NCBI GenBank assembly: GCA_945890705.1
Contig: CAMDCY010000002.1
Span: 1 to 58,510, forward strand
Direction of reading: 5' to 3'
Length of the DNA stretch: 58,510 nt
Source: Hydrogenophaga intermedia
GTDB taxonomy: Bacteria > Pseudomonadota > Gammaproteobacteria > Burkholderiales > Burkholderiaceae_C
Position 1 is the stretch's first letter, and each line of letters begins with the position of its first letter. The translations under genes were made by a program, and so were the position numbers. Below are positions 25,436 to 41,819 of the stretch, piece by piece. The notes below the pieces were generated by a model. The model had not been told where the DNA came from. It did no database searches and saw only the letters and a program-made list of their open reading frames with translations.

Positions 25436-25449
25436 GGGGCCGTGGGTGC

Positions 25450-26787: not shown

Positions 26788-26810
26788 GGGTTCTCCTAAA
26801 AAAATGGTGA

Positions 26811-27884
26811 TCAGTTGAGGGACACGGTGCGGCCGCTGTGAGCAGCTTCCATCACCGCCTCGGTCACACGCAGGTTGTCAAGACCGTCGCGCAAGCTCAC
26901 CAGCGGCGGTGTACGACCGCGCGCCACGTCCACAAAGTGGGCCATTTGTCGTGCGATAGGGTCCCAGCGCTGCAGTGGCAGGGTTTGCGTTTCCAGCGGC
27001 AACCACCACGAGCGCTCTTGGCCTTCGGGGTAGCGCTGCATCTGCATGCTGGGTACAGCCAAGCTGCCGTGGGTGCCAGTGATGAGGTAGCAGTCTTCTT
27101 CGGGGTGGCTGTCGTAGGCGGTGTTTTCTTGGCTGGTTTGTTCCCAGCTGCGCGAGCTGGCGGCGGTGTCGCTCAGCAAAAAGCTGGCCAAGACACCGCT
27201 ATCAAAACGCAGACCGATGCTGACCGTGTCCTCCACCGCATGACCGCGTATCGCATGCGAAGACAGGGCCTGCACCTGCAACACCGATCCCGCCATCATG
27301 CGCAGGTTGTGCACCTCGTGGATCAGGTTGAGCAAAACGGGCCCGCCACCGATCTCACGCCGCCAAGGGCCCGATTCGAAATACCGATCGGGTTTGTAGA
27401 ACAGCGCAGCGCCTTGGATGGCCACGATGCGCCCCAGCTGTCCACTGGCAATTACTGCGCAGGCTTGCTGCATGATGGCGCTGTGGGCGCGGTGGTGTCC
27501 CACCAAGATGCGCGCCAGTGCAGCGCCCTCGGCGTTGACGTGTTTCACGAGCCGCTCAGCTTCGGCCACGCTGGTGGCCACGGGTTTCTCCAACAAGACA
27601 GCCAAACCCGCTTGGACGCACTGCAAGGTTTGATCGACATGCAAAGCGTTCGGGGTGGCCAGCACGACCGCATCGGTGCAGGCCGATGCCAGGAGCGACG
27701 CCAAGTTGGCGTGGTGCGCCACTTGCAAGCCAGCGGCCAGTTCGGCGGCGTCGAGCGATGGGTCGACGATCGCGATCAAACGGGCGTTGGGGCAGTCCTG
27801 CACCGCTTGGATGTGGGCGCGGCCCATGTAGCCCGCGCCGACCACGGCCACGCGCAAAGGGGATTCAATGGTTTTTTCGGACAT
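26811..27884 (-). CDS. Gfo/Idh/MocA family oxidoreductase
   Basis: This 357-residue NAD(P)-dependent dehydrogenase belongs to the family of inositol and glucose-fructose oxidoreductases. The Rossmann motif GAGYMGRAH is at 16-24. The EKP motif (LLEKPVATS) lies near residue 97, and the proposed catalytic histidine is in LIHEVHNLRMM near residue 182. The start at 27884 was preferred over an upstream in-frame codon inside the TetR gene. It overlaps the end of that gene by 20 bases and is 23 bases ahead of aroQ. Substrate unknown: a cyclic polyol such as quinate or an inositol is plausible from context. Confidence 0.85.
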   Translation of the reverse strand: MSEKTIESPLRVAVVGAGYMGRAHIQAVQDCPNARLIAIVDPSLDAAELAAGLQVAHHANLASLLASACTDAVVLATPNALHVDQTLQCVQAGLAVLLEKPVATSVAEAERLVKHVNAEGAALARILVGHHRAHSAIMQQACAVIASGQLGRIVAIQGAALFYKPDRYFESGPWRREIGGGPVLLNLIHEVHNLRMMAGSVLQVQALSSHAIRGHAVEDTVSIGLRFDSGVLASFLLSDTAASSRSWEQTSQENTAYDSHPEEDCYLITGTHGSLAVPSMQMQRYPEGQERSWWLPLETQTLPLQRWDPIARQMAHFVDVARGRTPPLVSLRDGLDNLRVTEAVMEAAHSGRTVSLN

Positions 27885-28533
27885 AACGCAGCACCATTTG
27901 AACGATGTTTTCGCGCCGTGCTGCCACATAGGCCGGCGACTGTTTGTCTAACTGGAAGATCATGCCGAAGGTGTGGCGGTTGGAGACGTTGAAAAAAGTC
28001 AGCGCCGATATTGATTCGTGGATATCGGTGGGATCCAATCCTGGCAAAAATACCCCTTCGCGGACCCCCCGTTCGTAAATGCCACGCACCAAAGCAATGG
28101 CCGGTCGGTTGAGTTCTTGGATCTGTTCGCCTTGGGCCAAATAACGGCCACGGTTGAAGTTCTCCGCCATCACCATGCGGATGTGGTTTTCGTTTTTCAG
28201 GTGGTGATCAAAGGTCACCGAGGTGAGGCAGCGCAAGGCCTCGATCGGGGGCATCTTGTCGAGTTGCATGCCCAACTCGGTGTTGCGGATCCTCAGGTAA
28301 GACGCTTCGAGCGCGGCCAGGTACAAACCTTCCTTGCTCTCGAAGTAGTAGTAAATCATGCGTTTGCTGGTGCTCGTGGCCGCTGCAATGGCGTCAACCC
28401 GCGCGCCCGCCAATCCTTTTTCACCAAACTCGGCGATCGCAGCCTCCAAGATGTTCGCCTTGACCGTGTCGGGGTCGCGGGTGCGCTCGGGCGATTTTTT
28501 ATGTACCGTTTGGTTCATAGTGGTGAAACCCAT
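27865..28533 (-). CDS. TetR/AcrR family transcriptional regulator
   Basis: This 222-residue protein has an N-terminal helix-turn-helix domain (about residues 24-70; TSTSKRMIYYYFESKEGLY is the recognition part) and a ligand-binding C-terminal domain. It heads the minus-strand operon and is divergent from the TRAP transporter genes. A palindrome in the gap between them is its likely operator. The ATG at 28533 is used; a second ATG at 28518 is equally possible, as neither has a good ribosome binding site. Repression relieved by a pathway intermediate is the expected mode. Confidence 0.88.
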   Translation of the reverse strand: MGFTTMNQTVHKKSPERTRDPDTVKANILEAAIAEFGEKGLAGARVDAIAAATSTSKRMIYYYFESKEGLYLAALEASYLRIRNTELGMQLDKMPPIEALRCLTSVTFDHHLKNENHIRMVMAENFNRGRYLAQGEQIQELNRPAIALVRGIYERGVREGVFLPGLDPTDIHESISALTFFNVSNRHTFGMIFQLDKQSPAYVAARRENIVQMVLRYVRKNH

Positions 28534-28578
28534 GAGGCAAGGTTCGGGTTTTCCCTAGTATTTGTGTGGCTTGGTGCC

Positions 28579-28606
28579 AGTATAGCCTCAAACGCATTAA
28601 TGTACG
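28579..28606 (-). promoter_or_regulatory. Candidate promoter of the TetR-Gfo-AroQ operon
   Basis: On the minus strand TATACT (28584-28579) is preceded at 16 bases by CGTACA (28606-28601). The -10 is good and the -35 is weak. The -35 falls inside the palindrome at 28600-28617, which would give autorepression by the TetR protein. Confidence 0.45.
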
Positions 28607-28617
28607 AATTGGTACAT
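28600..28617. promoter_or_regulatory. Candidate TetR operator palindrome
   Basis: The arms ATGTAC (28600-28605) and GTACAT (28612-28617) are perfect inverted repeats around GAATTG. The size (18 bases, near-symmetric core) suits a TetR-family dimer pair. It lies between the divergent tetR and dctP genes, overlapping the -35 regions of both candidate promoters. Assignment to the adjacent regulator is inference from position. Confidence 0.65.
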
Positions 28618-28632
28618 AAAAGAAATTCCACG

Positions 28633-28641
28633 TGCTAATAT
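28633..28641 (+). promoter_or_regulatory. Candidate extended -10 promoter of the dctPQM operon
   Basis: TGCTAATAT at 28633-28641 is an extended -10 element (TGn plus TAATAT). No good -35 is present at 16-18 bases; that position lies in the palindrome 28600-28617. Transcription would start near 28648, about 50 bases before dctP. Confidence 0.5.
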
Positions 28642-28698
28642 CTTTTCGCCATCACGTCTGCGCGATGGACACACACTCAATTCATTAGGAGACACAGC

Positions 28699-29691
28699 AT
28701 GCGTTTTTCACCCGTTCGTCGCACACTCTTGACCACTGCGGTCGCAGCCTCAGTGGCCTCCGTTGGCGGTGGCGCCTTCGCCCAGAACAAAATCAAACTG
28801 CGTTTGTCTTCGCCCGCTTCGGCCACCGACCAGCGCGCGGTGGCCCTGACCTCGATCTTCGGGCCCGCGGTGGCTTCCTTCGCCGATTTGGATCCCCACT
28901 GGAACGCATCCTTGTTCAAACAAGGTACCGAGTTGGAAGCCATCTCCCGCGGTAACTTGGAAATGTCCATTGCTTCGGCCCAAGAATTGGCGGAGTTCTT
29001 CCCCGAGTTCAGCGTGTTCGCGGCCGGCTATGTGCACCGCGACGCGGCCCACCAGGTCAAGGTCTTCAACTCCGACTTCTTCCAGCCCTACAAAAAGAAG
29101 GTGGAAGACAAGCTGGGCGTGAAGTTGTTGAGCGTGATGTACCTGGGTCGTCGCCAACTCAATTTGCGCACCGATAAGCAGATCAACACCCCCGCCGATT
29201 TGGCTGGCTTGAAGTTGCGCATGCCCGGCTCAGAGGCTTGGCTGTTTTTGGGCCGCGCCTTGGGTGCCAACCCTGTGCCCATGGCCTTCACCGAGGTTTA
29301 CACCGGCTTGCAAACGGGCGCCATTGACGCACAGGACAACCCGCTGCCCACCGTTCGCGATGCCAAGTTCTTTGAAGTCACCAAGCAAGTGGTGTTGACC
29401 AGCCATTTGGTCGACTTGAACTACCTGACCCTGAGCAAGCGCGTGTGGGACCGCATGACACCTGCCCAACAGGCCACGTTGCAAAAAGCAGCCAACGACG
29501 CGGCCGAGTCGGGCCGCCAAAAGCAACTCGCTTTGGAAGGTGAGTTGGAAGCGTTCTTCAAAGAAAAAGGCCTGAAGGTCTACACCCCTAACTTGGATGC
29601 GTTCCGCAAGCAGGTTCAGGAGGCTTACCTGAAGTCCGACCTGGCCAAGAACTGGGAAAAGGGTGCCTTGGAAAGAATCAACGCACTGTGA
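28699..29691 (+). CDS. dctP: TRAP transporter substrate-binding protein, DctP family
   Basis: This 330-residue periplasmic protein has a Sec (possibly Tat-like, RRTLL) signal peptide ending at AFA, residue 28. The mature part shows the DctP family signature around residues 155-175 (LRTDKQINTPADLAGLKLRMPGS, with the arginine that salt-bridges the substrate carboxylate). The conserved arginine points to an acidic ligand such as a sugar acid or another carboxylate, not a neutral sugar. An AGGAG precedes the ATG. It is the first gene of the unit dctP-dctQ-dctM-dapA-like-uxaA-like. Confidence 0.92.
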   Translation: MRFSPVRRTLLTTAVAASVASVGGGAFAQNKIKLRLSSPASATDQRAVALTSIFGPAVASFADLDPHWNASLFKQGTELEAISRGNLEMSIASAQELAEFFPEFSVFAAGYVHRDAAHQVKVFNSDFFQPYKKKVEDKLGVKLLSVMYLGRRQLNLRTDKQINTPADLAGLKLRMPGSEAWLFLGRALGANPVPMAFTEVYTGLQTGAIDAQDNPLPTVRDAKFFEVTKQVVLTSHLVDLNYLTLSKRVWDRMTPAQQATLQKAANDAAESGRQKQLALEGELEAFFKEKGLKVYTPNLDAFRKQVQEAYLKSDLAKNWEKGALERINAL

Positions 29692-29714
29692 TGAGTTGAG
29701 TTAAAGCCCGAGCC

Positions 29715-30209
29715 ATGCAAGCCAGAAAAAACTGGTGGCAGGCGAGGGCCGATGACGTGGCGGTTGGTTTACTGACCGCCATGTTTTTGGTCTTCATCCT
29801 GCAAATCACCTCACGCTACGCCTTCAATGCTCCGCTGGAGTGGACCTTGGAGGCCTGTCTGACCTTGTGGTTGTGGACGGTGTTTTGGGGCTCGGCCTTT
29901 TGCTTGCGCAACGAAGACCACATCCGCTTTGACATGCTCTATGTCCTGATGGGCAAGCGCGTGCGACGGGTATTGGCCGGACTCAGCGCCTTGGCCGTGC
30001 TGGCCACCATGGCCGTGGCGCTGCCGGGCACTTGGGATTTTGTGAGCTTCTTGCAGATCAAGAAAAGTCCGTCATTGCGCATTCCGCTGTTTTACGTGTT
30101 CAGCATCTACATTGTTTTTATGTTGGCCACCATCGTCGCTTATGGGTGGCGGCTGTGGTCCATCATTCGATTCGAAGACACGCTTGACGCTGGGGAGTCG
30201 CCAGCATGA
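29715..30209 (+). CDS. dctQ: TRAP transporter small permease, DctQ family
   Basis: This 164-residue inner-membrane protein has four predicted helices. The middle segment with WTLEACLTLWLWTVFWGSAF and the following NEDHIRFD is typical of the DctQ family, which pairs with DctM to form the sodium-driven transporter. It lies 23 bases after dctP and overlaps dctM by an ATGA. Confidence 0.9.
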   Translation: MQARKNWWQARADDVAVGLLTAMFLVFILQITSRYAFNAPLEWTLEACLTLWLWTVFWGSAFCLRNEDHIRFDMLYVLMGKRVRRVLAGLSALAVLATMAVALPGTWDFVSFLQIKKSPSLRIPLFYVFSIYIVFMLATIVAYGWRLWSIIRFEDTLDAGESPA

Positions 30210-31516
30210 GTGAAGCTTTTATTCTGTGCATCGCCACCTTGTTTTTGTTGGCGGCGGTAGGCACACCCATTGCCTTTTCCATCATTTCGGGCGCGGTGGT
30301 TTACCTGTTGATGGCCGGACAAGACGTGGGCATCGCGGGCGAACAAATCATTTACGGTTTGTACGACAGCTTCGTGCTCTTGGCGGTGCCCCTGTTCATT
30401 GTGGCGGCCAACATCATGAACGCCGGCACCATCAGTGAGCGACTGCTGGATTTTTGTGTGGTGGTGGTCGGCCGCTTCAAAGGGGGTCTGGGTCACGTCA
30501 ACGTGGTCTCCAGCCTGATTTTCTCGGGCATGTCGGGTTCGGCCATCGCCGACGCGGCGGGCATCGGCAAAGTAGTCATCAACATGATGGTCAAGAGCGG
30601 TCACTACACCCGTGGCTATGCGGCAGCCCTTACGGCGGCTTCGGCCACCATCGGCCCCATCATTCCCCCGTCCATCCCCATGGTGCTGTATGCCTTGGTG
30701 TCGGATTCCTCGATCGGGTTTTTGTTTTTGGGCGGTGTCGTGCCAGGGCTCTTGATGGCTGCGACCTTGATGGTGATGAATGCCACCATTTGTCACCGCC
30801 GCGGCTTTGCCGCTGACCATGCGCCACCCTTGTCGCAACTGCCCAGGGCCACCCTGCGTGCGTTCCCAGCGTTGTTGTTGCCGGTGATCCTGCTCTACGG
30901 CATTTACGGCGGGGTCACCACCCCGACCGAAGCCGCCGCCGTGGCCGCCGCTTACGCCTTGTTGATCTCGGCCGTGCTCTACCGAGCCATCAAATGGGGC
31001 GACTTGCGCGCCGTCATGTTCGAAAGTGTTCGCTCATCGGCATCGGTCGGTTTGGTGATCGGTGGTGCACTGATCCTGAACTACATCGTGGCTTCTGAAG
31101 GCATTCCTGCTCAGTTGGCGGAATTTCTCAAGAGCATGGACGTCAGCCCACTGGGCTTCATGATCGCTTGCAACTTGCTGTTGTTGGCCTTGGGTTGTGT
31201 GCTGGACGCCAGCACCATTATCTTGGTGATCGTTCCCCTGTTCTTGGCCACGTGCCGGGCGCTGGGCATCGATTTGGTGTACTTCGGCGTGATCGTGGTG
31301 GTCAATTGCATGATCGGACTGATCACGCCGCCCTACGGCGTGCTGCTCTTTGTCATCAACGGCACCACCGGCATCAAGTTGTCCGAAATGATCAAAGAAA
31401 TTTGGCCCTTCTTGTTGGCCCTGCTGGTGGCTTTGACCCTGATGGTGGCGTTTCCGCAAATCATTTTGTGGCTGCCACAGCAGTTTGGCTACGTCCCCGC
31501 TGGATTGATGTGGTGA
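30206..31516 (+). CDS. dctM: TRAP transporter large permease, DctM family
   Basis: This 436-residue membrane protein has about 12 helices and is the transport subunit of the TRAP system. Family motifs include the region FSGMSGSAIADAAGIGKV near residue 110 and SATIGPIIPPSIPMVLYA near residue 148. Together with DctP and DctQ it forms a complete tripartite transporter. The dapA-like gene follows after 30 bases. Confidence 0.94.
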   Translation: MSEAFILCIATLFLLAAVGTPIAFSIISGAVVYLLMAGQDVGIAGEQIIYGLYDSFVLLAVPLFIVAANIMNAGTISERLLDFCVVVVGRFKGGLGHVNVVSSLIFSGMSGSAIADAAGIGKVVINMMVKSGHYTRGYAAALTAASATIGPIIPPSIPMVLYALVSDSSIGFLFLGGVVPGLLMAATLMVMNATICHRRGFAADHAPPLSQLPRATLRAFPALLLPVILLYGIYGGVTTPTEAAAVAAAYALLISAVLYRAIKWGDLRAVMFESVRSSASVGLVIGGALILNYIVASEGIPAQLAEFLKSMDVSPLGFMIACNLLLLALGCVLDASTIILVIVPLFLATCRALGIDLVYFGVIVVVNCMIGLITPPYGVLLFVINGTTGIKLSEMIKEIWPFLLALLVALTLMVAFPQIILWLPQQFGYVPAGLMW

Positions 31517-31546
31517 CTGTGAACCTTTATCAGGAATGAGCCCAAT

Positions 31547-32470
31547 ATGAATGCCCTAGTTTCTTTGACGCACCAAGGTGTCTGGCCTGCCATGCTGACA
31601 CCCCTTCAGGCTGATGGCGCTTTGGATCACGCGCGTTTGGTGTTCCACGCCAAACGCTTGTTGGCCGCGGGTTGTTCGGGCGTGACGCTGTTCGGCACCA
31701 CCGGTGAAGGTCCATCATTCAGCGTGGCCGAACGCATGGCGGCTTTGGAGGCTTTGTTGCAGGGTGGCGTTTTACCCACCCAGCTGTTGGTCCACACCAG
31801 TTGCACGGCCTTGCCCGACACCGTGGCCTTGACCCGTCACGCAGCCCAACACGCTGTGCACGGTTGCTTGGTGTTGCCGCCCTTCTTTTTTAAAGGGGTC
31901 AGCGACGACGGCATCTTGGATTGCTACCACGCGGTGATAGGCGCTTGCGCGGGTTTGCCCTTGCGGGTGGTGCTCTACCACATACCGCAAGTCACCGGTG
32001 TGGGCCTGAGCCACCGGGTGATCGCCGAGCTCTTGCAGCGCTACCCAGACGTGATCGTGGGTCTGAAGGACAGCGGTTGCCAACGCATCGAATCGGTGGC
32101 GTATGCAACCGCCTTCATGCCGCCCATGCAGGTGTGGGTGGGCAACGAGGCCGATGTGCCTGAGATGGCCACCTTGGGTACTCGTGGCGCGGTCAGTGGT
32201 GTGGCCAATATCTTGCCTGGATTGGTGGGGCGTTTGGTCACGGGGCGCGACCCGGTGAGCGTTCAAGCGGATTTGGATCGCGTGAAGGCCTTTTTGACCT
32301 TGATCGGTGGCTACACCATGGTCCCGGCCTTCAAGGGCTTGATGGCGATCATCGACAAGGACCCCGCGTGGTTGAACGTCCGTGTGCCGCTGCGCGCTTT
32401 GAGCCCTGCCGAGTTTGAACGCTTGCGTCAGCAGTGGTCGAGCTTTCAGCCGGGTGGCGGTTTGGGCTGA
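31547..32470 (+). CDS. Dihydrodipicolinate synthase (DapA/NAL) family lyase, probably 2-keto-3-deoxy-sugar-acid aldolase or dehydratase
   Basis: This 307-residue TIM-barrel protein belongs to the class I aldolase superfamily. The pyruvate-binding GTTGEG is at 50-55, the tyrosine Y144 lies in LYHIP, and the Schiff-base lysine K174 lies in VGLKDSG. The non-DapA context (TRAP transporter and UxaA-type dehydratase) argues against lysine synthesis. By analogy with C. jejuni Cj0481 it could cleave 2-keto-3-deoxy-L-fuconate to pyruvate and lactaldehyde. Relatives in L-arabinose pathways instead dehydrate the 2-keto-3-deoxypentonate. Substrate not proven. Confidence 0.85.
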   Translation: MNALVSLTHQGVWPAMLTPLQADGALDHARLVFHAKRLLAAGCSGVTLFGTTGEGPSFSVAERMAALEALLQGGVLPTQLLVHTSCTALPDTVALTRHAAQHAVHGCLVLPPFFFKGVSDDGILDCYHAVIGACAGLPLRVVLYHIPQVTGVGLSHRVIAELLQRYPDVIVGLKDSGCQRIESVAYATAFMPPMQVWVGNEADVPEMATLGTRGAVSGVANILPGLVGRLVTGRDPVSVQADLDRVKAFLTLIGGYTMVPAFKGLMAIIDKDPAWLNVRVPLRALSPAEFERLRQQWSSFQPGGGLG

Positions 32471-32513
32471 TTCGAGGCGTTGCTGGCTTGGTTCTTTCAA
32501 GAAAGTGGACCCC

Positions 32514-34037
32514 ATGAACTTCATCCGATTGCACCCCGCCGACGACATCGTGATTGCGCGAGGTCAGCTCATGAGCGGCGGTTCGGTGGAGGGCGTGGCC
32601 ATCAAAGGCCTCATCCCCCCGGGCCACAAAATCGCCACCCGCGCCATCGCCGTGGGCGAGCCGGTGCGGCGTTACAACCAAGTCATTGGCTTTGCATCGC
32701 AAGCCATCGCGCCGGGTGAGCATGTGCACACGCACAACCTGAGCATGGGTGCTGAGAAAGGCAACTTCGAGCGCGACTATGCCATCGGCCAAGACGTGAA
32801 ACCCGAGCCGGTGCGCCAGCACGCCACCTTCATGGGCTACCAACGATCGGATGGCCGTGTGGCCACGCGCAATTACATCGGTGTGTTGTCGAGTGTGAAC
32901 TGCTCGGCCACCGCCGCGCGCGCCATTGCCGACCATTTCTCCAAACGCAGCAACCCCGGTGCGCTGGCCAACTTCCCGAACGTGGACGGTGTCGTCGCAC
33001 TGACCCACGGCACCGGCTGTGGCATGGACTCGGAGGGCTTGGGCATGCAGCTGCTTGAGCGCACGCTGGCCGGTTACGCCACACACGCCAACTTTTGGGG
33101 CGTGGTGGTGGTGGGCTTGGGCTGCGAGTCGAACCAAATCAACACCTGGTTGGCCCACAGCAGCCTGCGCGAGGGCGACACGCTCAAGGTCTTCAACATC
33201 CAAGACACGGGCGGCACGCGACTCACGGTCGAAAAAGGCATTGCCTTGATCCAAGAGATGCTGCCCCGCGCCAACGCCGTGCAGCGTTCTGCGTGTGGCG
33301 TCGAGCACATCACCGTGGGCCTGCAGTGCGGCGGCTCAGATGGTTATTCGGGCATCAGCGCCAACCCCGCTTTGGGCGCCGCGGTGGACTTGCTGGTTCA
33401 GCACGGCGGCACCGCCATCCTGAGCGAAACACCGGAGATTTATGGCGCGGAGCATTTGCTCACGCGTCGCGCTGTGCGGCCCGAGGTGGCGCACAAGCTG
33501 ATCGAGCGCATCCGCTGGTGGGAAAACTACACCGCCATCAACGGCGGTGAGATGAACAACAACCCATCGCCTGGCAACAAGGCGGGCGGCCTCACCACCA
33601 TCTTGGAGAAATCATTGGGTGCCGTGGCCAAGGGCGGCACCAGCAACCTGCAGGCGGTGTACGAATACGCCGAGCCCGTTACCACCCAAGGTTTTGTCTA
33701 CATGGACACGCCCGGCTACGACCCCGTGAGCGCCACGGGTCAGGTGGCGGGTGGGGCCAACCTGATTTGCTTCACCACCGGGCGTGGCAGCGCCTACGGT
33801 TGCGCCCCCTCACCCAGCTTGAAGTTCTCGACCAACACAGCTTTATGGAAAAAACAAACCGAGGACATGGACCTGAACTGCGGCGAGATCGTGGACGACG
33901 GCGTGAGCATCGCCGAGATGGGCCAACGCATCTTCGAAATGATCTTGGCCACCGCCTCAGGCGAGCCGACCAAGAGCGAGCGCCACGGCTACGGCCAAAA
34001 CGAATTTGTGCCGTGGCAAGTGGGCGCGGTGATGTGA
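32514..34037 (+). CDS. UxaA family sugar-acid dehydratase (altronate/galactarate dehydratase type)
   Basis: This 507-residue protein has the full UxaA architecture: an N-terminal SAF domain (about residues 1-95, ending with PGEHVHTHN) and the long dehydratase domain that begins FMGYQRSDGRVATRNYIG. Iron-dependent members dehydrate aldonates or aldarates to 2-keto-3-deoxy acids. The same family supplies the dehydratase of the C. jejuni L-fucose locus (Cj0482/Cj0483, split there but intact here), so L-fuconate or D-arabinonate is a likely substrate. The ATG at 32514 matches the UxaA N-terminus. It closes the TRAP operon and converges on the FAH gene with 13 bases between. Confidence 0.87.
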   Translation: MNFIRLHPADDIVIARGQLMSGGSVEGVAIKGLIPPGHKIATRAIAVGEPVRRYNQVIGFASQAIAPGEHVHTHNLSMGAEKGNFERDYAIGQDVKPEPVRQHATFMGYQRSDGRVATRNYIGVLSSVNCSATAARAIADHFSKRSNPGALANFPNVDGVVALTHGTGCGMDSEGLGMQLLERTLAGYATHANFWGVVVVGLGCESNQINTWLAHSSLREGDTLKVFNIQDTGGTRLTVEKGIALIQEMLPRANAVQRSACGVEHITVGLQCGGSDGYSGISANPALGAAVDLLVQHGGTAILSETPEIYGAEHLLTRRAVRPEVAHKLIERIRWWENYTAINGGEMNNNPSPGNKAGGLTTILEKSLGAVAKGGTSNLQAVYEYAEPVTTQGFVYMDTPGYDPVSATGQVAGGANLICFTTGRGSAYGCAPSPSLKFSTNTALWKKQTEDMDLNCGEIVDDGVSIAEMGQRIFEMILATASGEPTKSERHGYGQNEFVPWQVGAVM

Positions 34038-34050
34038 TGGTTGCTCTGCT

Positions 34051-35268
34051 TCAGGTTGGCGTGCCCGGGACTTTCAACAAACCCCGACTCGCCAAGTTGT
34101 GCATGAGTGCGCCGATGCCGAAGGTCCAAGGCGCGGCCTGATCGCTCAAGCGAACCCGGTTGACCAAGCAACCCAGCGTAGGGCTGGAGACCGTTACCAC
34201 ATCGCCCACCACATGGGTGAACCCTTGCCCCGCGCCGTGCCGGTCTTTGGACGGTGAAAACATGGTGCCCATGAACAGCATGGCGCCATCGGGGTATTGG
34301 TGGCAGCGGTTGATCAGCTGTTGGGCAATGTCGAGGGGGTCGCGGCTGATGAGCGACATGGAGCTGCTGCCCTCCAAATCAAACCCGTCCTCGCCCGTCA
34401 CCGTCAAGGTCAATTCGCAGCGGCGCACATCGTCGATGCCGAAGTGTTCATCAAACAAACGGATGAAAGGGCCGATGGCGCACGAAGCGTTGTTGTCCTT
34501 GGCTTTGCCCAGCAACAAGGCACTGCGGCCTTCGATGTCCCGCAGGTTGACGTCGTTGCCCAAGGCCGCACCGCACACCTCACCGTGGGCATTGATGGCC
34601 AAGACCACCTCGGGCTCTGGGTTGTTCCAAACCGAGCTGGGGTGGATGCCGACGTCGGCACCGCTGCCCACCGCGGCGAGCACCGGTGCTTTGGTGAAAA
34701 TTTCAGCGTCGGGCCCAATGCCCACTTCCAAGTATTGCGACCAAGCGCCACGGGCGATCAAGGTCTCCTTGACGCGGCGCGCCTGGTCCGAGCCCGGCAC
34801 GATGCCACGCAGGTTGTCGCCCAAGATGGCACTGAGTTCTTGCCGGATGGTGTCGGCGCGTCCCGCATCGCCTCGGGCCTGTTCTTCAATGACGCGTTCG
34901 AGCAAGCTGGCCACGAAGGTCACGCCGCTGGCTTTGACGGCTTGCAAATCGCAAGGGGCCAGCAGCCATGGTTGGCGCTCGTCGCGGGCGTTTTCATCGC
35001 TGTTGGCCATTGCGTCGCTCAGCGGGCACAGCACCGGCAATGAACCGGATCGGCAAGCCGATTTCAAGGCTTGAGCGGGGTTGGGAAGGTTGATGAGTTC
35101 GCTGCTCGTGGCGGCCACACGGGAGGCGTCCAAGAGATGCCCCTCGCTGATCAAGACCAGTGTGGGCCCCACGCCGGGCTGCCAGAGGCGGCCGATCAGG
35201 GTAGCGCGAGCCGCGTCCAAGGGCAGGCTGTTGTTCAGGTGCGGCTGCAAAGGGATGTGGCTGGGCAT
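34051..35268 (-). CDS. FAH family protein, long type resembling 2-keto-3-deoxy-pentonate dehydratase (XylX/KdaD-like)
   Basis: This 405-residue protein has a C-terminal FAH catalytic domain with WNNPEPEVVL (metal ligand Glu) near residue 215, LGNDVNLRDIEGRSALLLGK near residue 235 and KAKDNNASCAIGPF. The length and these segments resemble, from memory, the FAH proteins that act as 2-keto-3-deoxy-D-xylonate or D-arabinonate dehydratases (Caulobacter XylX, Sulfolobus KdaD), giving 2-oxoglutarate semialdehyde. It is the last gene of the minus-strand unit with the aldo/keto reductase and the lactonase. A diketo-acid hydrolase is the alternative. Confidence 0.82.
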   Translation of the reverse strand: MPSHIPLQPHLNNSLPLDAARATLIGRLWQPGVGPTLVLISEGHLLDASRVAATSSELINLPNPAQALKSACRSGSLPVLCPLSDAMANSDENARDERQPWLLAPCDLQAVKASGVTFVASLLERVIEEQARGDAGRADTIRQELSAILGDNLRGIVPGSDQARRVKETLIARGAWSQYLEVGIGPDAEIFTKAPVLAAVGSGADVGIHPSSVWNNPEPEVVLAINAHGEVCGAALGNDVNLRDIEGRSALLLGKAKDNNASCAIGPFIRLFDEHFGIDDVRRCELTLTVTGEDGFDLEGSSSMSLISRDPLDIAQQLINRCHQYPDGAMLFMGTMFSPSKDRHGAGQGFTHVVGDVVTVSSPTLGCLVNRVRLSDQAAPWTFGIGALMHNLASRGLLKVPGTPT

Positions 35269-35281
35269 GGGCGGGTCCTAT

Positions 35282-36103
35282 TTAAAGTTGGTAAGTTCGG
35301 CGGGCGGTGCCCCCAAAGAGATCGTCTCGCTCACTGGGGCTGAGTTTGGAGGCCATGTGTTGTGAGGACTCAAACCAGTCAGCATAACGACCGGCGAGCT
35401 CCAAGACCGGCCAATCGCTGCCCCACATCACGCGCTGGGCTCCAAAGGTGTTGAGCACGTGCGCGCCCCAAGGGTGCACGGCGTCGCCCGTGGGGCTGGG
35501 CCCCGCCTCGGTCAGCAGACCGGAGAGCTTGCACACGGCGTGGGTCTCTAGGGCGATGCGCGTCATCAGGTTGGCCCAGGGTTCCCATTGTTGGTCGGCG
35601 ATGTGGGGTTTGGCTGCGTGGTCGATGACCATGGGCAGGCGAGGGTGGCGAGCGGCCAAGGTCAACACGTGGGGCAGGTGCTGCGGTTTGACCAGCCAGT
35701 CCAACACCAAGCCGTGTTCGGTCATGGCCTCCCAACTCGGGTTCAGCGCGTCTTGCAGCACCCAGCGCGGGTCGGCGATGTCTTGCAACATGGGGCGCAA
35801 GCCCTTGAGTTTGGGGTGGCGAGCCAACTCGGCGATCCGCTGTGGGGCGTCTATCGCCAAGAGGTCGACCCAACCCACAACGCCCAGCACCTCGGGGTGG
35901 GCGTTGGCTTGCGCCAACAAAAAGTGCGTCTCTGCGGTCGTGGGCGCGGCTTGTACCAGCACGCCGCCCGTGATGCCGTGTGGCGCTGCGACAGCGCGCC
36001 AATCCGCCGGCGTGACATCGCGGTAGATCGGGGTCAGGTCGGCGGTCAGCCAGCCATAGTCGCCTCGGGAGAGTTGCCAAATGTGAAAGTGCGAGTCGAT
36101 CAT
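35282..36103 (-). CDS. Amidohydrolase family protein, probably sugar lactonase (L-fuconolactonase type)
   Basis: This 273-residue TIM-barrel hydrolase opens with MIDSHFHIW, the metal-binding HxH motif (H5, H7) of the amidohydrolase-2 group (COG3618). That group includes L-fucono-1,5-lactonase and L-rhamnono-lactonase. Later metal and active-site segments are MVIDHAAKPHI near residue 183 and MWGSDWPVLEL near residue 240. It lies between the aldose dehydrogenase-like reductase and the FAH gene, which suits hydrolysis of the lactone formed by the former. The start at 36103 has no Shine-Dalgarno sequence: a hexamer repeat stands there instead. Confidence 0.87.
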   Translation of the reverse strand: MIDSHFHIWQLSRGDYGWLTADLTPIYRDVTPADWRAVAAPHGITGGVLVQAAPTTAETHFLLAQANAHPEVLGVVGWVDLLAIDAPQRIAELARHPKLKGLRPMLQDIADPRWVLQDALNPSWEAMTEHGLVLDWLVKPQHLPHVLTLAARHPRLPMVIDHAAKPHIADQQWEPWANLMTRIALETHAVCKLSGLLTEAGPSPTGDAVHPWGAHVLNTFGAQRVMWGSDWPVLELAGRYADWFESSQHMASKLSPSERDDLFGGTARRTYQL

Positions 36104-36108
36104 GGTCA

Positions 36109-36135
36109 AGGGCGAGGGCGAGGGCGAGGGCGAGG
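36109..36135. repeat. Hexanucleotide tandem repeat (AGGGCG)4
   Basis: Four perfect copies of AGGGCG occupy 36109-36132, followed by a partial AGG. The repeat fills the 32-base gap between the reductase stop (36136) and the lactonase start (36103). On the coding strand it reads CGCCCT, so it offers no purine-rich ribosome binding site. If read through in the lactonase frame it encodes Ser-Pro repeats. Confidence 0.9.
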
Positions 36136-37170
36136 TCAGGCGGACCTTGGCGTGGGGGCCGCATCGGGGATGAGCCCTTGGGCGCGCAAAGCACGCCAGA
36201 ACGCTGCGGGGATGGGGGCTTGTAGGTTGTGGATGGCGTCGGACCAATGGGCGGTGTCGCTGGCACCCAGCATCACGATCTCGACCGCTGGGTGGGCCAA
36301 TGGAAACTGCAGCGCGGCCGCGCGCAAGGCCACACCGTGGGCCTCACACACCGCCTCGATGAGCTGGGTGCGCTCGATCCAGTGTGCAGACGCTGGCGCG
36401 TAGTTGAACAGGGGCGTGGCCGTGCCGGCGCCCGTGGCCAACAGACCGGAATTGAACACGCCGCCCAGTGCCACCCGCACGCCGCGCTGGGTGCACAAAG
36501 GCAACAGGGCATCCAGAGCGCTGTGGTCGAGCAGGCTGTAGCGGCCAGCGAGCATCAACACGTCCAGATCGGTCCGGGCCAGAACGTCCAAACAGACTTG
36601 CACGTCGTTCACACCCAGCCCGATGTGGTCGATCAGGCCTTCGGCCTGCAGGCGGCGTAGCTCGGGCAGGGCTTGCGAGACGACCTGTTCCAGCACTTGC
36701 GGGTAACGCTGGCCGTGGCAGTCGGCAGCGCAATCGTGAACGTAAACCACATTCAAGCGGGCCAGTCCCATGCGCTGCAAGCTGTCCTCCACACTGCGCC
36801 GAACGCCCGCGGCGGAGTAGTCCCAACGTTGTCGAAACGGCAGCACGTTGACGTAGGCGTTCTGGTCTTTGAGTGCACGGCTGTCGGGCTCCAGCAAGCG
36901 CCCGACCTTGCTGGACACCACCCGGTGATCGGGATTCAACGGTTCGAGGCCACGGCCCAGTCGGTGTTCGCTGCGGCCGTTGCCGTAGTGGGGCGCGGTA
37001 TCAAAGGTGCGGCAGCCGTCGGCCAGAGCGAGTTCGATGAGCGCATGTGCTTGAGCGTCGCTGACGGCGTGGAATAAGTTGCCCAAGGGCGCACAACCCA
37101 ATCCGATGGGCAGCCCCTTTGAAGTTGGCAAAAAGCGGGGTTCGGCGCTGGCGTTCACGGGCGATGGCAT
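36136..37170 (-). CDS. Aldo/keto reductase, D-threo-aldose 1-dehydrogenase (L-fucose dehydrogenase) type
   Basis: This 344-residue TIM-barrel enzyme has the full aldo/keto reductase tetrad: D57, Y62 (APHYGNGRSE), K88 (SSKVG) and H145 (VYVHD). The C-terminal half has GGVFNSGLLA as in the D-threo-aldose 1-dehydrogenase group, which oxidises L-fucose, D-arabinose and L-xylose to the aldonolactones. It is the first gene of the minus-strand unit and divergent from fucU. NAD or NADP preference is not decided. Pyridoxal 4-dehydrogenase is a close relative and a weaker alternative. Confidence 0.84.
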   Translation of the reverse strand: MPSPVNASAEPRFLPTSKGLPIGLGCAPLGNLFHAVSDAQAHALIELALADGCRTFDTAPHYGNGRSEHRLGRGLEPLNPDHRVVSSKVGRLLEPDSRALKDQNAYVNVLPFRQRWDYSAAGVRRSVEDSLQRMGLARLNVVYVHDCAADCHGQRYPQVLEQVVSQALPELRRLQAEGLIDHIGLGVNDVQVCLDVLARTDLDVLMLAGRYSLLDHSALDALLPLCTQRGVRVALGGVFNSGLLATGAGTATPLFNYAPASAHWIERTQLIEAVCEAHGVALRAAALQFPLAHPAVEIVMLGASDTAHWSDAIHNLQAPIPAAFWRALRAQGLIPDAAPTPRSA

Positions 37171-37203
37171 GGAGGGGCGGCAAAGTGCTTATTTTTTGGT
37201 TCT

Positions 37204-37225
37204 ATCATATTGGCTGTCTGCAGCC
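37204..37225. promoter_or_regulatory. Candidate operator/promoter between the reductase and fucU genes
   Basis: The 113-base divergent gap contains the inverted repeat GGCTG (37212-37216) and CAGCC (37221-37225) with a four-base centre. Directly beside it on the minus strand is TATGAT (37209-37204), a good -10 for the reductase unit. The repeat would lie in the -10/-35 spacer. No dedicated regulator gene is adjacent, so which protein binds is unknown. Confidence 0.35.
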
Positions 37226-37283
37226 TAAAAGTCTTCTGCTAGGCCCATCCGACGTTGTCTTCCCTCACCATGGACGCTTCCCC

Positions 37284-37715
37284 ATGCTCAAAGGCCTATC
37301 TCCGCTGCTCAGCGCCGACTTGCTCCACGCCTTGGCGTCGATGGGGCATGGCGACGACATCGTGTTGGCCGACGCCAATTTCCCATCGGCCACCCATGCC
37401 AAGCGTTTGATCCGCATGCCCGGCGTGGGCGTGGGTGAGGTATTGGACGCGGTGTTGTCCGTGATGCCTTTGGACACCTTCGTCGATGCCCCCGCCTTGA
37501 CCATGCAGGTGGTGGGCGATGCGCAATCGACGCCACCCGCCGTTGCCGATTTCAACCGTGTGTTGGCGCGCCACGGGGCTCAGCCGGCCAGCTCATTGGA
37601 TCGCTTCGCGTTTTATGAGCGAGCGGCGCAAGCGTTTGCGGTGATCGCGACCGGGGAGACGCGGGTGTACGGGAACATCATCTTGCGCAAAGGCGTGGTA
37701 CTTCACCATGGCTGA
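37284..37715 (+). CDS. fucU: L-fucose mutarotase (RbsD/FucU family)
   Basis: This 143-residue protein interconverts the alpha and beta anomers of L-fucose. The N-terminus MLKGLSPLLSADLL, the motif MGHGDDIVLADANFP (residues 20-34, with the catalytic H22) and RFAFYERAAQAFAVI near residue 111 match FucU more closely than RbsD. The start at 37284 gives an N-terminus that aligns with E. coli FucU from its first residue. It heads the unit fucU-pfkB-eamA and is the best single clue to the substrate of this cluster. Confidence 0.9.
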   Translation: MLKGLSPLLSADLLHALASMGHGDDIVLADANFPSATHAKRLIRMPGVGVGEVLDAVLSVMPLDTFVDAPALTMQVVGDAQSTPPAVADFNRVLARHGAQPASSLDRFAFYERAAQAFAVIATGETRVYGNIILRKGVVLHHG

Positions 37716-38667
37716 TGCACACACTGCTGGCCCTTGGGACGTTGTCTGCGTGGCCAGTTGGAACGCCGACCTGGTGTCCCAGGTCGAGCGACCGCTGCGC
37801 AAAGGCGAGACCTTGATGGCTTCCCACTTTTCCATCGGGCCAGGTGGCAAAGGCAGCAACGCCTCGGTGGCGGCGGCGCGCCAAGGTGCCCAGGTGGCGT
37901 TGATTGCGCGCATCGGTGATGACGATTTTGGGCGCATGGGTTTGCGGCTGTGGCAAAGCGAAGGGATCGACTTTGCACACGTTGAACGTGCGCCTGGCGA
38001 GTCCAGCGGTGTGGCGCAAATTTGGGTCTACGCCGACGGCGACAACTCGGTGGCCGTGTGCCCGGGGGCAGGCTCGGGGCTTCAGCCCAGCCATGCCGAT
38101 GCGGCGCGCGAGCGGCTGGAGCACTGCCGGGTTGTCATGGCCTCGTGTGAGGTGCCGCTGGCCGTGACCGAGCGCGCTTTTGTCATCGCTCGCCAAGCGG
38201 GTGCCACCACGGTCTTGAACCCCGCGCCCGCGCAGCCACTGCCCGATGCGCTCATCCAGCTCACGGATGTGCTGACCCCCAACGAAACAGAGGTCCGTCT
38301 CTTGGCGCAGTTGCCGGTCAATGCCCCGGTGGCCGATGCCGCTCAACGGCTACTTGCGCGCGGTGCAGCGGCGGTGGTGGTCACGTTGGGCGGGTCCGGC
38401 TGTACCCTGTACCGACCGCAACAAGCGCCTGTGCATTTGCCCGGCCAGACCATGGCGGTGGTGGACAGCATCGGGGCTGGCGACACCTTCACCGGCGCCT
38501 TGGCAGCCGCCTTGGCCCGTGGGGAATCCTTGCCCAGCGCCATGGTCTTCGCCAATGCGGCAGCGGCATTATCTGTGACCGGGGCCGGTGCCATTGGGGG
38601 CATGCCGACACTGGCGCAGACCCAGGCACTGGTGCTGACGGCCCCTGTTGAGCCTGTGCTGAGATGA
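37708..38667 (+). CDS. PfkB family carbohydrate kinase (ribokinase-like)
   Basis: This 319-residue kinase has the ribokinase signature GPGGKGSN at 44-51 and the second PfkB signature with the anion hole and catalytic Asp, DSIGAGDTFTG, near residue 257. The overall spacing fits ribokinase, but the context (FucU and an oxidative sugar pathway) makes another sugar possible. It overlaps the end of fucU by eight bases and overlaps the next gene by ATGA. A kinase is not needed for the purely oxidative route, so it may open a second branch. Confidence 0.84.
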   Translation: MADAHTAGPWDVVCVASWNADLVSQVERPLRKGETLMASHFSIGPGGKGSNASVAAARQGAQVALIARIGDDDFGRMGLRLWQSEGIDFAHVERAPGESSGVAQIWVYADGDNSVAVCPGAGSGLQPSHADAARERLEHCRVVMASCEVPLAVTERAFVIARQAGATTVLNPAPAQPLPDALIQLTDVLTPNETEVRLLAQLPVNAPVADAAQRLLARGAAAVVVTLGGSGCTLYRPQQAPVHLPGQTMAVVDSIGAGDTFTGALAAALARGESLPSAMVFANAAAALSVTGAGAIGGMPTLAQTQALVLTAPVEPVLR

Positions 38668-39539
38668 TCCACCACAGCCGACCGTTGTTGGGTATCGTGC
38701 TGTTCCTGGGGTCGGGCGCTTGTTTCGCTTTGCTGGACACCACGGCCAAACACGTGGTGGCCACCGTCCCCGTGTTGATGGCGCTGGCGGTGCGTTACGT
38801 GTTGCAGGCGATTTTTTCCAGCACCTTCTTGATGGCCGCCAAGCAACATGCGCCGCTGCGCACCAACCGGCTGGGCTTGCAGTTGTTGCGCAGCGTGCTG
38901 TTGTTGGGCAGCTCGGTCGCGGCACTCTTCAGCCTCAAGCACATTCCTTTGGCCGAGTTCACCGCCATCGTCATGCTCACGCCACTGATGGTGTCGGTGA
39001 TTGCGGTGGTGGTGATGAAAGAAAAGCTCGACGGCGCCGGTTGGCTGCTGCTGGCATTGAGTTTTGCCGGCACCTTGTTGATCGTGCGGCCCGGTGGCGC
39101 TGCGTCGGGTTGGGGTGCGGTGTTTGCCCTGATTTGCGTATCACAGGCGGTGGCCTACCAGCTCTTGTCGGGTGTCCTGGGGCGAAGCGACAACCCCACG
39201 TCCACCCACTTGATCACGATGTGGAGCGCAGCGGTGCTGTTCACGCTGACCTTGCCTTGGAGTTGGTCTCCGATTGAGGATGCCGGGACTTGGGCTTGGT
39301 TGGCTTTTATGGGCCTCATTGGGGCCTTGGGCCATTGGCTACTGGCCCATGCGTTTCGCCACGCCCCCGCATCGACCTTGGCGCCTTTCAACTACGCCAA
39401 CTTGCTTTGGGCCACGCTGCTGGGTTGGTCGGTCTTTGGGCAGTTTCCCGATGCCATCGCCGCGACGGGCATGGCGCTCATCGCGGCGTGTGGGTTGATC
39501 AACACGCGGCGACACATGCGCCGCGACCGTCCTGCATAG
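38664..39539 (+). CDS. EamA/DMT family transporter
   Basis: This 291-residue membrane protein has ten predicted helices in two EamA halves, as in the drug/metabolite transporter superfamily. The first half ends near GAGWLLLALSFAGTLLIV, and the repeat begins again around residue 150. The ATG overlaps the kinase stop. Its substrate cannot be inferred from sequence; membership in the fucU unit suggests a sugar or pathway product. It converges on rpoD with 12 bases between. Confidence 0.84.
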   Translation: MIHHSRPLLGIVLFLGSGACFALLDTTAKHVVATVPVLMALAVRYVLQAIFSSTFLMAAKQHAPLRTNRLGLQLLRSVLLLGSSVAALFSLKHIPLAEFTAIVMLTPLMVSVIAVVVMKEKLDGAGWLLLALSFAGTLLIVRPGGAASGWGAVFALICVSQAVAYQLLSGVLGRSDNPTSTHLITMWSAAVLFTLTLPWSWSPIEDAGTWAWLAFMGLIGALGHWLLAHAFRHAPASTLAPFNYANLLWATLLGWSVFGQFPDAIAATGMALIAACGLINTRRHMRRDRPA

Positions 39540-39551
39540 CCCAGAGGTTAC

Positions 39552-41819
39552 TCAGATCGAGTCGATGAAGCTGCGCAGCTTGTCAGAGCGGCTGGGGTGT
39601 TTCAACTTGCGCACCGCTTTGCTCTCGATCTGACGGATGCGCTCGCGCGTGACGTCGAACTGTTTGCCCACCTCTTCCAGGGTGTGGTCGGTGGACATCT
39701 CGATGCCAAAACGCATGCGCAGCACCTTGGCTTCGCGCGGCGTGAGGCTGTCCAAGATTTCCTTGACCACGTCGCGCAGGCCGGCTTGCATGGCGGCTTC
39801 GATGGGGGCGGTGTTCGCTTGGTCTTCGATGAAGTCACCCAGGTGCGAATCGTCGTCGTCACCGATCGGCGTTTCCATGGAGATCGGCTCTTTGGCGATC
39901 TTCATGATCTTGCGGATCTTGTCTTCGGGCATTTCCATCTTCTCGGCCAAGATGGATGCGTCGGGCTCAAAGCCGTGCTCTTGCAAGTGCTGGCGGCTCA
40001 GGCGGTTCATCTTGTTGATGGTCTCGATCATGTGCACCGGAATGCGGATGGTGCGCGCCTGGTCGGCGATCGAGCGGGTGATGGCCTGACGAATCCACCA
40101 GGTGGCGTAGGTCGAGAACTTGTAGCCGCGGCGGTATTCGAACTTGTCCACCGCTTTCATCAAACCGATGTTGCCCTCTTGGATCAGGTCCAAGAACTGC
40201 AGGCCCCGGTTGGTGTACTTCTTGGCGATCGAGATCACCAAGCGCAGGTTGGCCTCGATCATTTCTTTCTTGGCGTGGCGCGACGAGGTCTCGCCTTGGT
40301 TCATGCGCTTGTTGATGTCCTTGAGGTGGGCCAGCGGGATCACCACGCTGCTTTGCAGGTTGATGAGGGCTTGTTGCAGCTCTTGGATGGGCGGGATGTT
40401 GCGCTGGATTACCACGCTCCAAGGCTTACCCGCGGCGGCTTGCTTTTCCACCCACTTCAAGTTGAGCAGGTTGTCGGCAAACTCTTTGACGAATTTGTCT
40501 TGGGGCATACCGCACTTGTCGACGATGATGCGGCGCAGCTCGCGCTCTTTTTTGCGCACATCTTCGACTTGGCCGCGCACGGTGGTGCAAAGCTTTTCAA
40601 TGGCTTTGGCGGTGAAGCGGATCGACATCAGGATGTCGGTCAGTGTGTTTTGGGTCTTGATGTAGGCGGGTGTGCCGTAGCCGTCTTTGTCGTAGGACTT
40701 GTGCAGTTTCTCAAACGTGACGCGCATTTTGTCGAAGCGCTCGAGCGCTTCGCGCTTGAGTTCCTCGAGCTTGCGGGTCATGGCTTTGGAGCCGCCTTTG
40801 CCGTCGTCGTCGTCGGCTTCGTCGTAGCTGTCGAAGTCTTCTTCAGCCACGTAGTCGTCGGCGGCGTCTGCGTCGACAAAGCCGTCGACCACGGTAGAGA
40901 TCACCACCTTGCCGGCCCGAATGTCTTCGGCCATGGCCAAGATCTCGGCGATGGTGGCGGGGCTTTCGCTGATGGCGGCCATCATGTCGTTCAAGCCGCC
41001 TTCGATGCGCTTGGCGATTTCAATCTCGCCTTCGCGCGTCAACAATTCAACTGTGCCCATTTCGCGCATGTACATGCGCACGGGGTCGGTGGTGCGGCCG
41101 AATTCGCTGTCCACGGTGGACAAAGCAGCTTCGGCTTCTTCTTCGGCTTCTTCTTCGGTCGCAGCGGTCGGACCGTTGTTGTTCAGCAGCAGGGTCTCGG
41201 CATCGGGCGTTTGTTCGTAAACGGCCACGCCCATGTCGTTGAGCAAGGACACCACGACTTCGAGCGTTTCGGCTTCGACCAGTTTGTCGGGCAGGTGGTC
41301 GTTGATTTCGCCGTGGGTCAGGTAGCCGCGGGTTTTGCCCAGCTTGATCAGGGTCTTCAAACGCTCGCGGCGGTTTTTGGCTTCTTCTTCGGACAAGACG
41401 GTTTCGTCCAAGCCGAATTCTTTCATCAAGGCGCGCTCTTTGGCCTTGCTGATCTTCATGCGCAGGGGTTTGACTTTTTCGGTCGGTTGGTCGCTGGAGA
41501 CCTCGACTTCACCGCTCAATTCGTCGTCGATGTCGCTCAGGTCGATGTCGTCTATAGGCGTGTCTTTGCCGGCTTTGCCTTTGACCGGGGCCTTTTTCTT
41601 GGCTGCTGCTGCTTTGGCAGCAGGCGTTTTGACAGCGACTTTTGCAGGGGCCTTGGCAACGGGTTTGGCAACGGGCTTGGTGGGTGCCTTGGCGGCCACT
41701 TTCGCGGCAGCTTTGACGGGCGCCTTGGCACTCACGGCTGAGGCTTTGGTCTTTTTGTCATTGGCGACCGTTTTGGGCGTGGACTTGGCTGCAGGCGCAG
41801 GGTTTTTTTTGGCGGGCAT
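39552..41819 (-). CDS. rpoD: RNA polymerase sigma factor RpoD (sigma-70)
   Basis: This 755-residue primary sigma factor has all regions: 1.1 around residues 125-210, the long non-conserved insert with acidic stretches, regions 2.1-2.4 ([19 protein letters not shown] and [19 protein letters not shown]), region 3, and the 4.2 helix-turn-helix [19 protein letters not shown]. The first 90 residues are a Lys/Ala/Pro low-complexity tail. The ATG at 41819 has AGGT upstream and gives MPAKK. A TTG four codons earlier is rejected. It lies 263 bases behind dnaG. Confidence 0.98.
41574..41816 (-). repeat. Lys/Ala-rich low-complexity segment of rpoD
   Basis: About 80 codons at the start of rpoD encode imperfect repeats of AKxPAKxA type (for example [28 protein letters not shown]). 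The DNA is correspondingly repetitive, with recurring GGCAACGGG and GCCTTGGC words. Similar tails are common in Burkholderiales RpoD; they are disordered and could bind nucleic acid. Copy number may vary between strains. Confidence 0.7.

Follow-up and report, generated by a model that had tools for sequence, protein, structure and literature searches.

The 58,510-nucleotide stretch of Hydrogenophaga intermedia DNA analysed here (the window) corresponds to contig C2 of a genome of 1.92 Mb, which is 82.7% complete and distributed over 128 contigs. Between positions 27865 and 39539 it carries a set of genes that is probably a locus for the non-phosphorylating catabolism of D-arabinose, of the kind described as Route II. 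The gene order is TetR (-), the three subunits DctP, DctQ and DctM of a tripartite ATP-independent periplasmic (TRAP) transporter (+), DapA (+), UxaA (+), FAH2 (-), a lactonase (-), an aldo/keto reductase (AKR, -), FucU (+), a ribokinase (+) and EamA (+), followed by rpoD. Because the gaps within each run are short (30 nt between dctM and dapA, 43 nt between dapA and the likely uxaA start, 13 nt between FAH2 and the lactonase) and fucU, rbsK and eamA overlap, we infer three transcription runs; scans for promoters and terminators did not exceed what shuffled sequences gave. A preliminary description had combined FucU, AKR, the amidohydrolase, UxaA, DapA and the TRAP transporter into a Campylobacter-like locus oxidising L-fucose or D-arabinose to pyruvate and lactaldehyde. 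The six elements are indeed open frames with strong family matches, and the observation is confirmed, while its interpretation is partly supported. Three genes have to be added to that list, namely FAH2, the ribokinase-like gene and the EamA permease gene.

The gene that changes the reading of the locus is FAH2 (34051–35268, minus strand; PDB 9kkt, 2e-128, and 2q18, 6.7e-18), a predicted 2-keto-3-deoxypentonate dehydratase of the FAH superfamily. Dehydration of 2-keto-3-deoxypentonate yields alpha-ketoglutarate semialdehyde. The specific glutamate and metal ligands that characterise the 2-keto-3-deoxy-D-pentonate (D-KDP) dehydratases of Route II are present: E189, E218, E220, D239 and K257 align with E114, E143, E145, D164 and K182 of archaeal KdaD, with conservation at all five catalytic positions checked. 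FAH2 is 63–65% identical to Herbaspirillum proteins that adjoin their UxaA (the identity comparison disregards one further row, L137, whose second half is read in a wrong frame), and in the Herbaspirillum BIN44 homologue the first glutamate lies at position 182, the number published for C785_RS13680 (PMC6336799). Genes for FAH2 and UxaA are also found near each other in Variovorax and P. ginsengisoli. Route 2 is described as specific for pentoses (PMC11199699). The overlooked dehydratase points to Route II, to a pentose as substrate and to alpha-ketoglutarate semialdehyde as product, and the end products proposed earlier are not supported. A literature search, which left subscription journals mostly outside so that its silence is not proof of absence, found nothing on PDB 9KKT or 9KKV. 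Outside this genome, G066 (L152, 8905–9760) carries a damaged remnant of FAH2 with 73% identity to the protein of the window, adjoining a GntR-DapA-TRAP-ribokinase group.

The dehydratase that would act before FAH2 is UxaA (32514–34037, plus strand, likely start ATG 32514; UxaA/GarD C-terminal domain, 4.9e-103), a single chain of 507 residues assigned to the D-arabinonate/D-idonate subfamily of the UxaA/GarD superfamily of sugar-acid dehydratases. Four cysteines expected as iron ligands in the single-chain D-arabinonate dehydratases (132, 171, 206 and 274, numbered from 32508) are common to all 8 aligned rows, but as they also occur in UxaA and GarD they identify the superfamily and not the substrate. 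The protein is 69% identical to one of Herbaspirillum autotrophicum, 63% to PDEN_RS24515 of Paracoccus denitrificans and 60–61% to that of Azospirillum B510; PDEN_RS24515 is probably the D-idonate dehydratase of PMC6336799, the link between tag and enzyme having been made in the present analysis. Identity is 37% to the large chain of split UxaA, 31% to E. coli UxaA and 36% to GarD of both E. coli and the same genome (contig C11), and the galactarate model gives 375 bits (cut-off 731). The earlier expectation that UxaA would group with neither altronate nor galactarate enzymes thus held, with 31% and 36% to these types against 61–69% to three members of the subfamily assigned to it. A tree was discarded for this question, as E. 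coli UxaA, E. coli GarD and the genome's own GarD joined the ingroup on branches 5–7 changes long; identities were used instead, and the tree served solely to define the nearest clade.

It was also correct that the window lacks an enolase-type fuconate dehydratase: at the sensitivity used, MR_MLE_C matches occur in the genome only on contigs C53, C11 and C22. The contrast drawn from this, with an enolase-type dehydratase as the betaproteobacterial norm, does not hold, as a 2019 paper described a betaproteobacterial UxaA-type enzyme that acts on D-arabinonate and, weakly, on L-fuconate; relative activities of C785_RS13685 of H. huttiense were 100 for D-arabinonate, 12 for D-altronate, 5.6 for L-fuconate and 2.4 for L-galactonate (PMC6336799). 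For a betaproteobacterium, an oxidative route built on UxaA is therefore already known and not new. Elsewhere in the genome, C11 (L159) carries a probable galactarate/glucarate locus with GarD (61% to E. coli GarD), an HpcH/HpaI aldolase, two enolase-superfamily genes and, by eye, TRAP-like genes, while at the end of C53 (L158, 5398–9442) an enolase-superfamily gene adjoins two aldehyde dehydrogenases, a candidate place for other sugar-acid steps.

The first oxidation would be carried out by the AKR (36136–37170, minus strand; Aldo_ket_red, 1.2e-37), a D-threo-aldose (D-arabinose/L-fucose/L-galactose) 1-dehydrogenase type protein of a COG0667-type family, which is 39–47% identical to 12 relatives encoded beside a lactonase and for which D-arabinose dehydrogenase activity is predicted. 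The adjacent amidohydrolase (35282–36103, minus strand, likely start ATG 36103; Amidohydro_2, 2.8e-44; PDB 4dlf, 2.7e-39) is a sugar lactonase of the L-fucono-1,5-lactonase kind, although it scores 212 bits against NCBIfam FuconLaconase (NF052480; cut-off 400) and membership is not claimed. Likewise, FucU (37284–37715, plus strand, likely start ATG 37284; RbsD_FucU, 2.4e-41) reaches 117.9 bits with the L-fucose mutarotase model PRK15420 (cut-off 141) and 44.5 bits with the RbsD model (cut-off 93), and is thus called FucU-like without equivalog membership. A second FucU-type gene lies on contig C32 of the same genome (L160, 3195–7852), beside a ROK-family regulator and genes judged by eye to encode an ATP-binding cassette (ABC) sugar transporter.

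Matches to the AKR at E 1e-40 or better occur in 22 of 399 genomes of the order, which we take to be Burkholderiales (own genome included), the best other being 47% identical. The surroundings of all 25 other places in the order were searched (tblastn, E 1e-8, half coverage; some stretches end at contig ends). A lactonase stands beside the AKR in 12 of them, UxaA of either kind in 6 (single-chain 2, split 4), FAH1, the type of FAH protein associated with Route III, in 4, FucU in 2, and DapA with TRAP in 1. Outside this set, AKR, lactonase and UxaA share one stretch in Azospirillum (L132), G066 (L153), G083 (L154) and Sphingomonas (L136), and also, with FucU, in L067. The AKR-lactonase-UxaA module is thus recurrent, while the full set of the window was not met among the loci read. 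The frequent pairing of AKR and lactonase agrees with the part of the earlier route that runs from aldose through lactone and aldonate to a 2-keto-3-deoxy acid, with the AKR acting first; this part is supported, unlike its end products.

A trio of AKR, UxaA-type and FAH-type proteins is encoded in cluster 4 of Paraburkholderia mimosarum NBRC 106338 (A19U_RS0129385/390/395), which is induced by D-arabinose and whose AKR is active on D-arabinose, L-fucose and L-galactose (PMC6336799). Route II oxidation of D-arabinose is therefore the best-supported reading. The gene content, the family memberships and the conserved active-site residues are observed directly, and every substrate, the order of steps and the uptake function are inferred from them. 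FucU would equilibrate the sugar anomers, the AKR would oxidise D-arabinose to the lactone, and the amidohydrolase would open the ring to give D-arabinonate. The UxaA-type iron enzyme would then remove water to form 2-keto-3-deoxy-D-pentonate, and FAH2 would carry out a second dehydration, yielding alpha-ketoglutarate semialdehyde; oxidation of this product to alpha-ketoglutarate would fall to an aldehyde dehydrogenase encoded elsewhere. L-fucose and L-galactose, which have the same relevant stereochemistry, may feed into the first steps, and the TRAP transporter and DapA lyase would probably supply the substrate rather than complete its breakdown.

That L-galactose or L-fucose is the true substrate, D-arabinose being merely tolerated, appears quite improbable. 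L-galactose dehydrogenases are the best PDB chains for the AKR (1.9e-23), the lactonase and FucU resemble families named after fucose, and the P. mimosarum enzyme accepts both sugars, but characterised FAH2-type enzymes use five-carbon keto-deoxy acids (PMC6336799), and no good homologue was found in the genome for the dehydrogenase that Route III oxidation of L-fucose would require (one reference protein; best match 36%, against 57–72% among related loci). A Route III kind of enzyme does occur upstream in the window, an FAH1 protein (23603–24457, plus strand) resembling 2,4-didehydro-3-deoxy-L-rhamnonate hydrolase (387 bits, cut-off 500); the genome yielded no partner short-chain dehydrogenase/reductase (SDR), with 36% as the best match (one reference protein).

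Several observations weigh against Route II oxidation of D-arabinose. The closest UxaA relatives, 87–93% identical, are those of eight records from Limnohabitans, Comamonadaceae and Burkholderiales (L009–L016), and all eight lie in a TRAP-UxaA-Ldh2 locus without AKR, lactonase, FucU or FAH2. The UxaA of the window belongs to their clade and falls outside that of the AKR-linked proteins (L132, L153, L198, L207), and its substrate is therefore not fixed by phylogeny. Among 80 UxaA loci, several on short contigs, FAH2 was found in 6, FucU and lactonase in 2 each, AKR in 1, DapA in none, and the full combination in none; FAH2 is likewise absent from all 25 AKR places of the order. No clear alpha-ketoglutarate-semialdehyde dehydrogenase was found, either in the locus itself or in the genome as searched with the Variovorax enzyme alone, the best match reaching 41% over the aligned stretch; in this 82.7% complete genome the six matches are at most 39% identical to that enzyme and at most 25% to two other references. 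In 7 of the 8 loci with UxaA orthologues (L015 being a 10-kb contig) there are also an enolase-superfamily gene, an FAH1 (55–57%) and an SDR that shares 55–59% identity with its Route III-type counterpart in B510; in favour of the reading, this SDR and FAH1 also fit a dehydratase of this substrate series. These relatives suggest a Limnohabitans-like lineage and a probably freshwater habitat for the bacterium.

The first run of the locus couples the transporter to DapA and UxaA. DctP (28699–29691, plus strand; DctP, 3.5e-59), the solute-binding protein, is accompanied by the small permease DctQ (29715–30209, plus strand; PF04290, 1.7e-22) and the large permease DctM (30206–31516, plus strand; PF06808, 2.1e-106). 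It is 60–65% identical to PDB 4pf6, RD1_0742 of Roseobacter denitrificans, with which it shares the motifs SAQELA, GYVH and HLVDLNY, and both fold searches with its structure model (pLDDT 82.0) rank 4pf6 first (the alignment excludes a further DctP, that of L009, which is divided between two frames). The next solved relatives are sialic-acid binders; uptake of a neutral sugar is hence unlikely, and with it the suggestion that TRAP takes the place of the fucose permease FucP. The ligand of 4pf6 is, we presume, 3-deoxy-D-manno-octulosonic acid (Kdo), and DapA-superfamily lyases can interconvert Kdo with pyruvate and D-arabinose. DapA (31547–32470, plus strand; DHDPS, 3.3e-33) has the Schiff-base lysine in GLKDSG and the tyrosine in LYHIPQ; on superfamily and lysine it is a candidate Kdo aldolase, and it could alternatively be a 2-keto-3-deoxypentonate aldolase.

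In its relationships DapA stands apart from lyases acting at the end of such pathways. It is 55% identical to the protein of G066 and 33–35% to TRAP-linked lyases of G382, Marinovum and Ponticoccus, but 19–22% to YagE, NanA, E. coli DapA and a protein from the context of a 2-keto-3-deoxy-L-arabinonate (L-KDA) dehydratase, from which it is separated as a clade; the terminal lyase function assigned to it earlier is thereby disfavoured. The 34–38% matches in the order represent a different group of lyases, in which 8 of 8 have an FGTNSEA motif, and none of the ten larger regions around them has a DctP or DctM match; eight of these regions are in the tree (L266 and L272 are out), and the order rows L231, L238, L246, L250 and L256 were dropped from the first tree for an apparent wrong frame. 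The DapAs beside 4pf6-like transporters of Rhizobium 32-5/1 and Peteryoungia are again of another type (15–16%). The idea that DapA and the TRAP-linked lyases form one close and exclusive family was weakened by the tree, where pairing is firm with G066 alone (100/99) and the join to Marinovum, Ponticoccus, G382 and 3b4u is at 94/90.

An unlikely alternative for this run is Route I, in which the transporter would import an aldonate (D-arabinonate, L-fuconate or L-galactonate) and DapA would cleave the 2-keto-3-deoxy acid to pyruvate and an aldehyde, as proposed for Campylobacter. DapA does lie between TRAP and UxaA within one run, acids are common TRAP substrates, and the UxaA orthologue adjoins TRAP in all eight of L009–L016. 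Apart from the distant position of DapA just described, it is countered by FAH2, which already uses the same intermediate, and by G382, where a related lyase stands by AKR and lactonase with none of the searched dehydratase kinds within 19 kb, the UxaA (72%) being 55 kb away.

We prefer, as an unproven reading of the TRAP-DapA pair, the uptake and cleavage of Kdo. A complete Kdo catabolic system, in which the transporter would take up Kdo, DapA would release pyruvate and D-arabinose, and FucU, AKR, lactonase, UxaA and FAH2 would oxidise the freed pentose, is a tentative proposal, possible but less likely than not. It would explain an acid-type transporter and a lyase in one run with the dehydratase. 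D-arabinose is rare in nature; its source is therefore a fair question for such loci, and the TRAP-lyase pair offers Kdo as a concrete candidate. On the other hand, 4pf6-like transporters may serve quinate or shikimate, which resemble the Kdo ring in shape, and the ligand in the crystal may derive from the expression host. Among the papers listed, the same literature search showed none on RD1_0742 or EFI-510239, and it found nothing on Kdo utilisation, with one eLife paper, in the part available, mentioning Kdo in biosynthesis alone. If the proposal is true, bacteria eat, without phosphorylation, a sugar that belongs to the lipopolysaccharide inner core and also to the walls of plants and algae, and a sequence can be attached to an activity, Kdo aldolase (EC 4.1.2.23), that a 2007 survey of orphan activities lists in its table as ‘difficult’.

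The main rival to a single functional locus arises from the genes upstream. A row on the minus strand (24488–27929), divergent from the TRAP operon, encodes a Mem_trans (AEC-type) permease, a shikimate-dehydrogenase-domain protein (SDH, 25450–26286), a type II 3-dehydroquinate dehydratase (AroQ, 26338–26787, above its cut-off) and a Gfo/Idh/MocA family protein (Gfo, 26811–27929), and is a probable shikimate/quinate-related unit. It is possible, but less than even, that two unrelated units abut here, TetR, TRAP and SDH-AroQ-Gfo serving shikimate or quinate uptake and catabolism while the D-arabinose genes are merely downstream and DapA-UxaA became joined by rearrangement. The three genes lie divergently beside TetR (27865–28533, minus strand; TetR_N, 3.7e-13; TetR_C_29, 9.3e-40), which is 45–47% identical to TetRs beside shikimate-type TRAP loci (L225–L227); the SDH is 66% identical to one in Marinovum that has AroQ, Gfo and a 4pf6-like TRAP as neighbours; and in G523 a 66–71% DctP with the motifs of the 4pf6 clade occurs with Gfo, a shikimate-dehydrogenase-domain protein and a TIM-barrel/HPPD protein but no DapA. 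Against this, the binding proteins of L225–L227 form a separate group, 50–52% identical to the DctP of the window and with different motifs, of the five most closely related TRAP loci (L221–L224, L228), four have a DapA-family lyase, for which we know of no use in quinate catabolism, and G066 keeps TRAP-DapA with a ribokinase and the FAH2 remnant but has no SDH, AroQ or Gfo match in 19.9 kb.

Regulatory signals bear on the same question. Between TetR and dctP lies the palindrome ATGTAC-N6-GTACAT (28600–28617, 0 mismatches), a candidate operator of the TRAP-DapA-UxaA run, with a copy carrying 1 mismatch at 28501–28518, so that the two stand inside and next to the start of TetR. Two matches at up to 2 mismatches compare with a mean of 0.39 in 100 shuffles, 6 of which had at least 2. 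The exact core occurs at TetR-TRAP in 1 of 276 loci alone, the window's own (L219), and with 1 mismatch in the TetR-SDH gap of L226; it is present in neither L225 nor L227 and was not found at AKR-FucU, which suits two units. The G+C content is 56–58% at 28001–32000 (TetR-TRAP-DapA) against 58–67% in the other 2-kb blocks, which may reflect membrane proteins or acquisition.

The third run is completed by the ribokinase-like PfkB kinase (37708–38667, plus strand; PfkB, 2e-63; D_ribokin_bact, 281 bits, cut-off 299.65), of which a 58% homologue adjoins DapA-TRAP in G066, and the EamA/DMT-type permease (38664–39539, plus strand; EamA, 1e-23).

Among known systems, the fuc locus of C. jejuni (Cj0480c–Cj0489) likewise combines a mutarotase, an aldose dehydrogenase, an amidohydrolase, a UxaA-type dehydratase and a DapA-type protein, but has an SDR (FucX) instead of an AKR, UxaA in two genes, major facilitator superfamily (MFS) permeases and an aldehyde dehydrogenase (PMC6946681, PMC11365321), and its published table shows no FAH-type dehydratase. 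A tblastn search of 27801–39600 with FucP and two SDR references returned nothing at E 1e-4, AKR and TRAP being present instead; the window also lacks a lactaldehyde dehydrogenase, as previously noted, one aldehyde dehydrogenase query (from L006) matching only C3, C18, C43, C10 and C53. Compared with the published passages rather than with sequences, the Campylobacter-like label is thus apt for the reaction logic and not for the two-gene UxaA. A closer formal match to it than the window is a Sphingomonas parapaucimobilis plasmid (L136, 5079–13369), with fucP, SDR, amidohydrolase, AKR and two-gene UxaA in one run. The locus of Azospirillum sp. B510 plasmid pAB510a (L132) has contiguous AKR (44%), lactonase (45%), UxaA (60%) and FucU (47%), but an ABC transporter (by eye), an SDR and an FAH1 of Route III type in place of TRAP, DapA and FAH2.

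Cluster 1 of Herbaspirillum huttiense (C785_RS13685/13680/13675) also has a UxaA-type D-arabinonate dehydratase adjoining an FAH-type dehydratase, and differs in a Route III SDR and in that its authors found no D-arabinose dehydrogenase candidate (PMC6336799); in two other Herbaspirillum the proteins are 69% (UxaA) and 63–65% (FAH) identical to those of the window. The nearest counterpart is P. mimosarum cluster 4, which, by description and not by alignment, likewise unites a COG0667 AKR, a UxaA-type D-arabinonate dehydratase and an FAH-type D-KDP dehydratase in one Burkholderiales cluster; to this published trio the window adds an amidohydrolase lactonase, FucU, a ribokinase, TRAP and DapA. 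The oxidation chain thus extends the betaproteobacterial D-arabinose route to a Limnohabitans-like lineage, with a lactonase and a mutarotase as additional members, and natural D-arabinose use thereby becomes easier to spot in genomes.

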